64,000 nucleotides of DNA from Bacteroidales bacterium WCE2008 (GTDB lineage Bacteria; Bacteroidota; Bacteroidia; Bacteroidales; UBA932), in contig FUZM01000003.1 of the NCBI GenBank assembly GCA_900167925.1, positions 372,001-436,000 of the forward strand, written 5' to 3'. The position numbers and the translations under genes were made by a program. Shown here one piece after another: positions 26,062 through 60,263 of the stretch. Below the pieces are notes generated by a model. The model was not told the DNA's origin and made no database searches. It worked only from the letters and a program-made list of their open reading frames with translations. Numbering within the stretch: the first letter of the stretch is position 1; every line of letters starts with the position of its first letter.

Positions 26062-27522
26062 ATGGACAATATCATAATAAAAGGTCTTTCCATCCTGGCC
26101 GCCGGCGCACTGCTTTTCGCATGCTCACCGATGGACAAGGATGACCATCAGCTCGGCCAGATGGCGACCGAAGAGGGACTCAGCTTTACCCAGGCCTCTT
26201 CAGCCGAGTCTGCCAACATAATTACCTTCACCAACACTTCCGACGTGAAGGGCGTAGCTCTCTGGGATCTCGGAAACGGATCATCTGCCAAAGGCGACGT
26301 GGTTACAGGACAGTACCCTTTCAAGGGCGACTATACAGTGACCATGACGCTCTACACAGCAGGCGGAGCAGTCTCCACCAGTTCTGTAATAACTGTAGCC
26401 AATGACGACTACAGTCTGCTCGACACCCCTGGATTCAACGCCCTCACCGGAGGCGCAGACAATCTTGAAGGCAAGACATGGGTATTCGCACGCTATACCG
26501 TCGGCCATTTCGGAGTCGGTCCCGCCGATGATGCTCCGGGCAGCGGTCCTTCATGGTGGGCCTGCCCTGTCAACGGCAAGGACGGAAGCTCGCTCTACTC
26601 CCAGAAATTCACCTTCATCCAGAAGGGAACTATCATGAAGTGGGAGAACGACGGACGCATCTATACCAACGAGAACGGTATGAACATGCTTGGGATCTCC
26701 GGTACCCTGAACCCGGTAGTCGGTGACTATGATGTACCTTACGTTCCGGCAGAATCCTATACGTTCACGCTCGACGAGGCTTCGATGGCCCTTACCCTCA
26801 GCGACGGAGCATTCTTCGGCCATTATGCCGGCACCAGCGAATACAAGATCCTCAACCTCAACGAGCATGAGCTCTCGATCTACTGCAAGAGTGAAGCTGA
26901 ACCTTCCAACGCCTGGTATTATATCTTCATCCCGGAGGAGGATCTCAAAGAGCCGGAACCGGAAACGGAGCCTGAGGCAGAGCTTACTGCCGTTTCCCTT
27001 TCCGAAGATTTCGAGGGCGATCTTTCCTTCGCTTTCACAGCCCAGGACATGGGTGCCCGTACAGGTGTCTATTCCAATCCTGCTCCTGTAGCAGCCAACT
27101 CTTCCGCCAAGGTTTACGCATACGAGAAGTCAGAGGCTTTCTACTCTAACCTTTCTTATGTGTTCGAGGGCAAGAAGATGGATCTCACCGAAAACAACAA
27201 GGTCCGCGTCAAGGTATTCATCCCTTCTTACAACGACTGGACGACCGAAGCCGGCGTTGCAGGGGACTGGATTACCAACGCAAACCTGCTTCCTCAGCTT
27301 GCCGTCAAGCTTCAGGACAACAGTCTCGGCGGTGATGCATGGACTACGCAGACTGAAATCGTGAAAGCAGACCTTGCTCTGGATCAGTGGATTGAACTGG
27401 AGTTTGACTTCAGCGGCGTTGCTGACCGTACCGACTATGACAAGATTGTAGTCCAGTTCGGTGCCGAAGGACATGCTGCACCTGGCCTGTTCTTCTTCGA
27501 TGATTTTACTTTCGGTAAATAA
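26062..27522 (+). CDS. PKD-domain surface glycan-binding lipoprotein (SGBP-like)
   Basis: 486 aa from ATG 26062 (an earlier in-frame ATG at 26008 overlaps the susD end and gives no signal peptide). Lipobox LLFAC gives a surface lipoprotein. Residues ~35-115 form a PKD-like domain (ITFTNTSDVKGVALWDLGNG). A middle beta domain (~130-300) is followed by an acidic Pro/Glu linker (EPEPETEPEAE) and a C-terminal jelly-roll-like domain (~320-486) ending in FFFDDFTFGK. PKD plus carbohydrate-binding modules in this position are typical of second glycan-binding proteins of laminarin and beta-glucan loci. No catalytic motif is seen. Confidence 0.8.
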   Translation: MDNIIIKGLSILAAGALLFACSPMDKDDHQLGQMATEEGLSFTQASSAESANIITFTNTSDVKGVALWDLGNGSSAKGDVVTGQYPFKGDYTVTMTLYTAGGAVSTSSVITVANDDYSLLDTPGFNALTGGADNLEGKTWVFARYTVGHFGVGPADDAPGSGPSWWACPVNGKDGSSLYSQKFTFIQKGTIMKWENDGRIYTNENGMNMLGISGTLNPVVGDYDVPYVPAESYTFTLDEASMALTLSDGAFFGHYAGTSEYKILNLNEHELSIYCKSEAEPSNAWYYIFIPEEDLKEPEPETEPEAELTAVSLSEDFEGDLSFAFTAQDMGARTGVYSNPAPVAANSSAKVYAYEKSEAFYSNLSYVFEGKKMDLTENNKVRVKVFIPSYNDWTTEAGVAGDWITNANLLPQLAVKLQDNSLGGDAWTTQTEIVKADLALDQWIELEFDFSGVADRTDYDKIVVQFGAEGHAAPGLFFFDDFTFGK

Positions 27523-27572: not shown

Positions 27573-27664
27573 TTAATGATGATGAGCCGGGTACCAGCTG
27601 TCAGGCTGGGAAGGATAGCACCGAAGGTGCGTAGCTTTTCGACTGATACCCGGCTCATCATTAA
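27573..27664 (+). repeat. Structured repeat element, copy 1 (two-hairpin core inside a long stem)
   Basis: Outer stem: 5' arm 27573-27593 pairs with 27647-27664 (TACCCGGCTCATCATTAA), 18 pairs with one 3-base slip in the ATG-repeat part. Inside are hairpin A CCAGC-TGTCAG-GCTGG (27594-27609), linker GAAGGATA, hairpin B GCACC-GAA-GGTGC (27618-27630) and GTAG. The same core occurs at 60197-60236 with compensatory changes. It fills the gap between the PKD lipoprotein and GH16 genes, ending 10 bp before the GH16 start, and would form the GH16 mRNA leader. Could be a REP/MITE-like repeat or a structured mRNA element. Confidence 0.8.
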
Positions 27665-33748: not shown

Positions 33749-33839
33749 CAAAAAGAAGGGATCAGGCTTTCCCCAAAGCCTGATCCCGTATATAAAACGA
33801 ACTTAACAAATAGACATGAAAAAATCTTTTCGAATGTCT
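33749..33839 (-). ncRNA. Candidate small RNA with own promoter and terminator
   Basis: About 91 nt on the minus strand. A promoter lies directly upstream; the RNA would start near 33839, form a 5' hairpin AGACAT/ATGTCT (33834-33839 with 33812-33817), an AU-rich single-stranded linker, and end in a 13-bp hairpin GGGATCAGGCTTT / AAAGCCTGATCCC (33787-33775 with 33770-33758) followed by TTCTTTTT. No start codon with an open frame of useful length is seen on this strand. The alternative is that the hairpin is only a distant terminator for the lipoprotein gene at 33958-34410. Confidence 0.55.
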
Positions 33840-57861: not shown

Positions 57862-60114
57862 CTATAGTTCAAATACAACTGAAGAGTTCGCCCCGAGTTT
57901 GAGCGAAGTTCCATCGACGTATGCAGTGCCGAGAAGGGCCACGCAATGTGCCATGCTGTCGTCCACCTCTATCGTCTTGTCGGAGTTGGCTACGTTGTGG
58001 ATGACCAGAAGCTTGGAGCTGCCGGAGGTCATGTACCATGCTGCTATCGCAGGATCGTCAATGGAAGTGACGCTCATCTGACCTTCTGCAAGAGCCGGAT
58101 AGGTATTGCGAAGTGCCGAGAAAGTCTTGTAAACGTTCAGCAGGGACTCTTCGTCGGCAAGCTGGCTCTCCACGGAAATGGAAGCGGTCAGCATGCTCTT
58201 GTCAATCTTCGATCCAAGGCGCTTAGAAGCAAGGCCGGTGTTGCTCTTGGTCCACATCATAGGGGTACGCACATACTCGTCTCCCTTGGACTTGGTACCC
58301 CAGTATCCGAGTTCCTCGCCCTGATAAATGAACGGCTTGCCGCCCGCGGTGAGTAGGAAAGCAGCAGCCTGTTTCTCCTTTGCGAGATTCTTGCCGAGAT
58401 CGCTGGCAGCCCTGTCCTCGTCATGGTTGGAGAGCTTAAGAGCAGGAACGGCATCGCTCCTGCGGGCCTTATAGGCATCATGGTACCCAATTATGTCAGC
58501 GACAAACTTTCCTGCACGCCTGTTGTTGAGCACGTCCCTGAGCCCCCACCAGAAGCTGAATTCGAAGACTGACGGAAGGCCGTCGTAGTAGCTGTAGGTT
58601 GCGGGAGCGTCACTGAAGACTTCGCCGACCATAAAGATATCCCCTTCTCCGCCGGCGGCCTTATAGGTAGCGTTGCACCTGTCATACCATTTGTCGAGGA
58701 AGGTAGGGTTCTCGGAGGATGTCTCGCTCCAGTAGATATGCTTGACGGCGTCGAGACGGAGTCCCGCCACGCCCATGTCGATCCATTTGTCAGCTGAATT
58801 CGCAAGATCGACAAATGCAGGAGAAGTCTCCGCCTCCGAAGCCTTGCCGTAATTGAAATCGGCGAACCAGTCGGTCCAGAGATGGGAATGATAGTATGTC
58901 ACTTCCTTGAAGACTATATCTGCGGCTTCGGTATTGTTGAGGGTGAAAGGCTCTCCGAAGGCGATTACATCTCCGGCCTTTCCGCCATACTTGGTACCGT
59001 TGTCCCAGGTTTCACTCGATGTCCTTATGAGGAAGCCCCAGTCAGAATCGAAATCGACGACGATATGGTATTTTCCGTCACCGTCTTCTACGAAAGCCCT
59101 ACATTTATCGTCATTGCCATAATAGATATATTTCTTCGACGAGCCCGTTTCGACTGCGGCATCTGTTTCGGTAACAGTCACTACCGGAGCGGAATCGCTC
59201 TTCCAGTCGAGGTCGAAACGGAAACGTCCCTTCGCCCCGACCTTCTCTCCACCTACCGCGAACCATTGGCCGGCATCGAATCCGTTCTTCGGGAACATCG
59301 GTAACTTCCCGGCCTGGATATCTGCGGAAGGAGTCTTGCTGAAGAGGAAGTAATCCCTGTACTGGCTCTCTTCGCTTGCGCAGGCGTCCTTGAACCATGG
59401 ATGGTCCTTTCCGGCATGGTTGAGCACATAGTCGAGATAGATGTCGATGCCCTTTGCCTTGGCCTTTGCCAGGAGGTTGCGGAAATCGTCCTCGGTGCCA
59501 TATTCCGGATTGAGGGAGAAATAGTCCAGGACATCATATCCATGATAGGACATGGCAGGATGGACAGGCGAAAGCCAGAGGGCTGTCACTCCCATCACGT
59601 CTGAAAGATAATCCAGCTTTGAGCTGATTCCGTTGAAATCACCGATGCCGTCGCCGTCGCTGTCTGCGAAGCTGTACACGAGAAGCTGATAGGTCGTCGA
59701 AGCTCTCTTGGTACCGTCGAAGGCAGCAGGAGTGGCGGTCAGAGGGACCATGTTATCGGCGCCCTGACTCACGGACACAGTGACATCAGGAGCTCCTGAG
59801 ACGGAGATGCGGATTGAACCGGTGCGTTCGTCCGAGCCCGTATTCTCGTCAGCTGTGACGGAAATGGAGCCCTTGCCTTTGCCGGAAGTCTTGTCGAGAT
59901 GGAACCAGGTGGCGGACGGGGTTGCCGTCCAGTCTCCGGTGGTGCTTACGGCGATTATTTTTGTGCCGGTGGCTTTCGGAGCAAAGGTGACGGTTGTCGG
60001 GGTTGCCGAGAGGGTGACCTTTACGTCCGGAGTCTCTTTGTTGTCGCCGCCACAGGAGCTCAACACCGCAATAGTTGCGGCCACAGCCATTATATACTTC
60101 AATATTCTTTTCAT
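57862..60114 (-). CDS. SusG-like alpha-amylase with BACON domain and CBM58-like insert
   Basis: 750 aa lipoprotein (lipobox LSSC, Cys21). BACON-like domain ~30-120 (GDWTATPSATWFHLDKTSGKG), GH13 domain from ~138 with Asp455 (GLRLDAVKH), Glu498 (MVGEVF) and Asp565 (LSNHDEDR). Residues ~262-405 form an extra beta-rich insert in domain B with aromatic residues, in the place where SusG carries its CBM58 starch-binding module. Surface enzyme that opens starch for import. BACON at the N-terminus is not part of classical SusG. Confidence 0.93.
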   Translation of the reverse strand: MKRILKYIMAVAATIAVLSSCGGDNKETPDVKVTLSATPTTVTFAPKATGTKIIAVSTTGDWTATPSATWFHLDKTSGKGKGSISVTADENTGSDERTGSIRISVSGAPDVTVSVSQGADNMVPLTATPAAFDGTKRASTTYQLLVYSFADSDGDGIGDFNGISSKLDYLSDVMGVTALWLSPVHPAMSYHGYDVLDYFSLNPEYGTEDDFRNLLAKAKAKGIDIYLDYVLNHAGKDHPWFKDACASEESQYRDYFLFSKTPSADIQAGKLPMFPKNGFDAGQWFAVGGEKVGAKGRFRFDLDWKSDSAPVVTVTETDAAVETGSSKKYIYYGNDDKCRAFVEDGDGKYHIVVDFDSDWGFLIRTSSETWDNGTKYGGKAGDVIAFGEPFTLNNTEAADIVFKEVTYYHSHLWTDWFADFNYGKASEAETSPAFVDLANSADKWIDMGVAGLRLDAVKHIYWSETSSENPTFLDKWYDRCNATYKAAGGEGDIFMVGEVFSDAPATYSYYDGLPSVFEFSFWWGLRDVLNNRRAGKFVADIIGYHDAYKARRSDAVPALKLSNHDEDRAASDLGKNLAKEKQAAAFLLTAGGKPFIYQGEELGYWGTKSKGDEYVRTPMMWTKSNTGLASKRLGSKIDKSMLTASISVESQLADEESLLNVYKTFSALRNTYPALAEGQMSVTSIDDPAIAAWYMTSGSSKLLVIHNVANSDKTIEVDDSMAHCVALLGTAYVDGTSLKLGANSSVVFEL

Positions 60115-60134: not shown

Positions 60135-60263
60135 GGCAAAGGTACTGACGGTCCGGAGACCGTGGCCGCCCGCGGCCATCGTGAGCGGGAGGAGCCCAGC
60201 CGTCAGGCTGGGAGGGATAGGGCCGAAGGCCCGTAGTCTGCCGGACCGTCAGTACCTTTTGCC
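60135..60263 (+). repeat. Structured repeat element, copy 2 (two-hairpin core inside a long stem)
   Basis: Outer stem: 60135-60156 pairs with 60241-60263, 22 pairs with one extra A. AGAC (60157-60160) and GTCT (60236-60239) extend it. Core as in copy 1: hairpin A CCCAGC-CGTCAG-GCTGGG (about 60195-60212), linker AGGGATA, hairpin B GGGCC-GAA-GGCCC (about 60220-60232), then GTAG. It also has an extra GC hairpin GTGGCCGC/GCGGCCA (60162-60178). Located between susE/F-like and amylase genes on the minus strand, so the shared core runs antisense to these genes, opposite to copy 1. Confidence 0.8.

Follow-up and report, generated by a model that had tools for sequence, protein, structure and literature searches.

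A palindromic element with a conserved pseudoknotted core and mostly locus-specific arms in Bacteroidales genomes

Palindromic elements lying in frame within housekeeping genes are best known from Rickettsia. The Rickettsia palindromic elements are described as palindromes of ~150 bp, present in many copies and often inserted in frame in unrelated genes (PMC10969869, PMC3733652). A second related system is TnpAREP subclass 2.6, or RAYT group 5, of the Bacteroidetes, whose flanking structures are reported as atypical, lacking GT[AG]G and recurring at other genomic sites (PMC6006769).

The element described here resembles the Rickettsia elements in being a palindromic repeat of many copies that is also inserted, without loss of frame, in protein-coding genes unrelated to one another (54 of 227 copies lie in spanning ORFs, whose frame stays open for 150 nt or more on each side). 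However, it occurs in an unrelated lineage, has a conserved pseudoknot core with mostly locus-specific arms, and encodes no conserved peptide, the peptide changing wholly upon core inversion. With the subclass 2.6/group 5 structures it shares the Bacteroidetes host, the lack of GT[AG]G and the presence of copies elsewhere in the genome, whereas the palindromes beside the Y1 genes differ from it by eye, and only 1 of 30 stretches around such genes had R1 matches. In GTAG REPs, a hairpin of 20-40 bp has GT[AG]G at its 5' foot; in contrast, the GTAG of the element is located 3' of the last hairpin and varies, and the whole unit is about 90-190 bp long. As with those REPs, a Y1/HUH transposase is found in the same genomes (see below), which is a correlative observation. 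The element is MITE-like in its short length, terminal inverted repeats, high copy number and lack of an internal transposase but, unlike in MITEs, its core orientation is not fixed, its arms have no shared end sequence and no direct target duplication was seen at three clean empty sites, a composite in genome G095 being the exception as to arms and duplication. Overall, the closest system in behaviour is that of the Rickettsia palindromic elements, and the closest in build are the REPs and MITEs. No description of this family was found in searches of openly accessible papers on REP/RAYT, Rickettsia palindromic elements, MITEs and Bacteroidetes repeats.

Two copies in the window and the spread of the family

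The window, i.e., the whole 64-kb stretch of DNA analysed, contains two copies (Table 1). The two-hairpin core and outer arms that the original prediction had placed here were recovered with perfect arms at both loci, and the change in its hairpin B from GCACC/GGTGC to GGGCC/GGCCC proved correct. Copy 2, whose core the prediction had placed at 60195-60236, proved longer, the core model R1 matching 60160-60219.

Table 1. Positions of the element parts in the window
Feature	Position	Strand	Basis
Copy 1 (focal copy), 5'-truncated, without hairpin P2 and pseudoknot	27573..27664	+	sequence and comparison with full copies
Copy 1 left arm, perfect 15-bp inverted repeat	27579..27593	+	
Copy 1 hairpin P3 (hairpin A of the original prediction), CCAGC/GCTGG, loop TGTCAG	27594..27609	+	
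Copy 1 hairpin P4 (hairpin B of the original prediction), GCACC GAA GGTGC	27618..27630	+	
Copy 1 right arm, complementary to left arm	27647..27661	+	
Copy 2 (full copy) left arm, perfect 19 bp	60138..60156	+	
Copy 2 full conserved core: P2, pseudoknot, P3	60160..60219	+	R1 match, 71.5 bits, E 2.7e-12
Copy 2 hairpin P4 (GGGCC GAA GGCCC) and GTAG	60220..60236	+	
Copy 2 right arm	60241..60259	+	

The arms of the two copies are two of only three perfect inverted repeats in the whole window that reach 13 bp with a spacer of no more than 120; of 30 first-order Markov simulations of the window, 2 produced a single repeat of this kind and 28 produced none. The third one, with a length of 13 bp (window 33758-33787, GGGATCAGGCTTT), is probably an ordinary terminator. 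Full copies elsewhere in the genome start with ~35 bases additional to those of copy 1, and copy 2 has these bases. The core of copy 1 is matched at a second genomic site at 98% over 44 nt (E 3.5e-15). The ORFs around copy 1 form a same-strand series: the preceding one ends at 27522, and the following one, named GH16 in the original prediction, has a signal-peptide-like start at ~27675. This position makes the proposed GH16 leader possible, but leader RNA as the main role is unsupported, as the core faces different ways with respect to one and the same gene in different species. No syntenic counterpart was found for the focal locus, the matches in 3 of the 100 other genomes being confined to a short part of the GH16 ORF. 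On its minus strand, the left arm of copy 2 includes TACCTTT(GCC), a promoter -7-like motif, facing a minus-strand ORF that starts at 60114.

At E 0.01, R1 detected at least 38 copies in this genome (G000), at least 18 in G059, at least 36 in G022 and at least 45 in G046, all lower bounds with 150 candidates scored per genome. The searches at higher ranks, run with stricter filters than these counts, found the element in 48 of 61 genomes of the genus (R1, E 0.001), in 36 of 119 genomes and 9 of 25 genera of the family (R1, E 0.0001) and in 5 of 295 genomes of the order (R1, E 0.0001), three of the five from other families. A pattern scan of named genomes matched at least 120 stretches; the 80 matches listed by title were all Bacteroidales or Bacteroidia, many of them from ruminant or other animal guts, and some titles among these were Candidatus Cryptobacteroides. 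Phages and plasmids searched by blastn with one copy as the query gave no match, nor did viral contigs searched with one exact pattern, and cargo of phages, plasmids or viruses was rejected on these grounds.

Core fold and arms

The unit consists of a ~60-nt core (hairpin P2, pseudoknot, hairpin P3 and an optional P4) within self-complementary arms. In alignment A2 of 44 cores, the GGCC/GGCC-like P2 is followed by P3, a near-constant GGGARGGAT and the optional P4, and the P2 loop (CCCNN) pairs with a downstream NNGGG to form the pseudoknot. The covariation score of this fold was 0.306 against 0.100 in shuffles, none of 500 of which reached it, and slid pairings scored 0.037 at most. In total, 95.6% of the cells pair, with both-sided changes at 9 of 19 pairs, including the pseudoknot columns 13-27 and 14-26; the P2 pair at columns 4-20 is unpaired in 27 of the 44 cores. 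One P3 position is G-U in 33 cores, A-U in 10 and G-C in 1. The complementary strand would carry a mismatch in place of this G-U, which favours the + strand as the folded one. Even the P4 stem differs between copies with a near-identical core in G011. Rfam gave no matches in the window and, at four other element loci, only matches far under the gathering scores; an Rfam match at gathering score, placing the element in a known structured RNA family, was therefore not found. A lack of further copies and of covariation had been named in advance as evidence against the prediction, and the opposite was observed: there are many genomic copies, and the core fold covaries, including the pseudoknot. 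The proposal of "a structured RNA or REP/MITE-like element" is supported in part, by the copy number and the covarying fold; a main role as leader RNA is not supported.

For the arms, the 291 profile hits were reduced to 260 without identical neighbourhoods and then to 227 with full flanks. In 212 of these 227, the two arms of one copy pair above the 99th percentile of 400 mismatched pairs (median 20.5 vs 6.0). The arms are ~15-30 bp long and mostly differ between loci, even when the cores are identical or near-identical. They are shared in recent expansions (G095, G171 and part of G162) and in a second subfamily of this genome (L100, L102-L115), and are alike in the dispersed copies L041/L101 and L040/L042. 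Since arms are common to the G095 and G171 expansions and similar in these dispersed copies, the idea that they are made anew at each insertion was rejected as a general rule.

Insertion, inversion and arm change between relatives

In comparison with the 54 of 227 copies in spanning ORFs, control windows placed 1-1.5 kb off were in spanning frames in 98/133, 100/162, 124/172 and 97/143 cases, so the copies avoid genes overall. Those inside genes occur in both orientations. Among 30 spanning ORFs scanned, 22 had a Pfam family at E 0.001, above the cut-off in 21 and below it in L234; those without one (L082, L012, L154, L249, L248, L294, L097 and L130) may be spurious. The element-bearing genes, named from Pfam domains and our own reading, are rsmE, prmC, aroB, an aroE-aroK fusion, uvrD, ribF, tilS and atpG, as well as polA, dnaX (two copies), ygiQ, trmB and genes for a SpoU methylase, a Mur ligase and an EamA transporter. 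In polA, uvrD, dnaX, trmB and ribF, the element is located between or after domains and not within one. A dnaX-like gene (L261:760-2664) carries two elements ~eight codons apart in opposite orientation.

Both flanks matched one ORF for 41 copies; many of the matched ORFs carry the same insert, and 10 copies have an element-free partner. In this latter set, all six genuine interruptions (L093, L089, L175, L014, L172 and L234) are in frame and open, and the top-scoring matches of the two flanks use this same frame. Seemingly out-of-frame or closed cases (L046, L008, L247, L026 and L068) proved to be antisense open frames over intergenic DNA and were dropped; such artefacts account for 4 of the 10 copies. 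The extra residues relative to solved relatives fall between aligned blocks in RsmE (insert 182-235, counterpart in 3kw2 176-192), AtpG (59-109, 4xd7 58-80) and RibF (131-164, 3op1 149-159). In two species, rsmE has an equal open length of 288 aa (stop to stop) with opposite core orientation and a different inserted peptide, which indicates that the DNA unit, not the peptide, is what is kept.

G022 and G046 have long aligned blocks in common with 81-97% identity, and their comparison yielded three clean empty sites (L081 vs L088; L322/L326 vs L093; L329 vs L083). The core and both arms were absent in all three, and no direct target duplication was seen by eye. Inverted duplication of the target flank as the origin of whole arms was rejected, given that these sites are without either arm. 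At two of them, those of L093 and L083, a few bases at the outer ends of the arms are nevertheless similar to the native flank. Moreover, a coreless palindrome was left at orthologous sites in uvrD (G022, L325), prmC (G022, L078) and trmB (G047, L065), the arms of the uvrD relic being equal to those of the full copy in G046.

Among 31 orthologous pairs whose flanks are at least 75% identical, 10 show an inverted core, and 15 of the 21 non-inverted pairs stem from one locus in six genomes with constant orientation. These were drawn from 57 pairs found (20 inverted), of which 52 were scored after dropping 4 in one record and 1 with weak arms; the main count omits 21 scored pairs with flanks below 75% (9 inverted; many arms unaligned). 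In one set of 11 comparisons, the core was inverted in L096:10004/L321 and L082/L327 and kept its orientation in L085/L328, L084/L330 and L085/L331; two further ones were empty, one was coreless, and L090/L324, L096:7092/L323 and L093:9207/L326 were left uncalled. L046 and L008 differ in core orientation, yet a mismatch in the arm, 9 bases away from the core, sits at the same place in both, so that the exact repeat spans only 8 bp. This argues against both an assembly flip, for which we judged 8 bp too short, and ordinary homologous recombination.

The arms change in a coupled manner at some sites: all 7 changed arm pairs were compensated in L230/L151 and 6 of 8 in L081/L088, with flanks 93-94% identical. 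Over the 31 pairs, which are non-independent, 58 changes were compensated, 112 one-sided and 13 double non-pairing. Compensation is therefore far from complete, one-sided changes outnumbering the compensated ones. A raised mutation rate of the arms is not claimed, as flanks under selection may evolve slower than free sequence. In L061 and L066, from two species, the element adjoins a perfect palindrome, CGTTCCACGTGGAACG, which we take to be parS-like; there the arms are unrelated and the core is inverted.

Candidate movers and competing explanations

Matches to Y1_Tnp (PF01797) were present in 42 of 48 element-bearing genomes against 4 of 13 element-free ones (Fisher p 1.3e-4, uncorrected for ancestry in genomes that are related and in many cases incomplete), and in 19 of 22 against 0 of 3 when only genomes at least 90% complete were counted (p 0.009). 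Six of the 48 element-bearing genomes had no Y1 match, and both matches in this genome are under Pfam's cut-off. The RAYT idea of the original prediction gains from this co-occurrence, correlative as it is, but 29 of the 30 stretches around Y1 genes had no R1 match at E 0.01, L130 being the one that did. Its reading of GTAG as a REP signature was not borne out, since across the family the last hairpin is followed by varying bases (GTA, TTA, GAA) and the element is missing from the same 29 stretches. By eye, Y1/RAYT-like genes of the genus (L127, L128, L132, L136, L139, L145 and L146) are flanked by palindromes of their own, which differ between non-orthologous genes and in several cases are repeated two-hairpin units.

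On balance, we favour the interpretation of the feature as a mobile but non-autonomous palindrome, the equivalent in Bacteroidales of REP/RPE elements, moved in trans most likely by a Y1/HUH (RAYT-like) enzyme. Y1/RAYT transposases are probably the movers; the link is correlative only. One strand would fold into a hairpin and be recognised as single-stranded DNA by the trans-acting transposase. Strand switching, or hairpin cutting and rejoining, might then keep the arms complementary while flipping the core, and in-frame copies in tolerant loops would survive selection with the encoded peptide being incidental.

A cis-acting structured RNA, riboswitch-like or leader, with an outer stem free to vary and selected for gene regulation, would account for the strong covariation, the pseudoknot and the P3 position that favours one strand. 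It would also fit a motif found at the edges. The 346 edges of 173 copies outside spanning ORFs contained TAnnTTTG 38 times reading out and 22 times reading in, compared with 12 and 11 times in 672 control windows; it is thus enriched at element edges, in a set where some copies are orthologous and so non-independent. At one locus (L017, L018, L161, L188, L192 and L221), the element is found in six genomes in a single orientation with TAnnTTTG in the arm of 5 of the 6, and this locus may have been adopted as a promoter region. However, inversion of the core relative to the same gene in related species, copies within coding sequences in both orientations, their presence or absence between relatives and the lack of an Rfam match make a regulatory RNA improbable. 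An invertible DNA switch, in which a dedicated recombinase would act on the arms to produce phase variation, we regard as slightly more improbable still. The inverted orthologous pairs, from one genome per species, would suit it, as would two contig ends of G059 at one locus (L051, L052) showing the core both ways, although one of these ends is folded back onto the sequence flanking it and could result from misassembly. The arms, however, differ at most loci and thus provide no common recombination site, and several copies are inside housekeeping genes, where inversion switches nothing obvious.

The core might instead be a passenger in the centre of ordinary DDE-transposase MITEs and move with them. 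In G095, it lies within a MITE family with the terminal repeat ATCCGCAAAATTACCCC (L277-L287, L297-L316), which comes with the core, without it (47-74 bp) or with another interior of about 386-393 bp, and has AT-rich direct repeats of 8-10 bp by eye. This composite looks like the work of another transposase, and the MITE copies without the core imply that the core can be carried by other elements. As a general explanation it is nevertheless rather unlikely: most of the copies inspected have unique arms, there was no direct duplication at the three clean empty sites, and DDE_Tnp_1, the sole DDE family compared, was not associated with the element (16 of 48 vs 5 of 13 genomes, p 0.75).

Mobility in trans, the favoured reading, leaves room for a more specific and tentative proposal to which we give a low probability, namely that the element persists through a cycle of hairpin transfer. 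The palindrome would be cut at its foot, on the folded strand, by a nuclease that is perhaps a HUH/RAYT protein; refilling would then copy arm from arm, flip the core and rewrite both arms together, comparable to the flip/flop of parvovirus terminal hairpins. If true, a single mechanism would account for cores that invert where they stand, arms that evolve in concert and copies that persist within conserved genes. The inversion of the core at the same site, together with the coupled arm change at some sites, points to a strand-switching process. For annotation, host proteins carry inserts of mobile origin, of about 30-60 residues, that differ between related species. Overall, a Bacteroidales lineage with tens of such elements per genome makes their origin, and the tolerance of in-gene insertions, testable in other bacteria.
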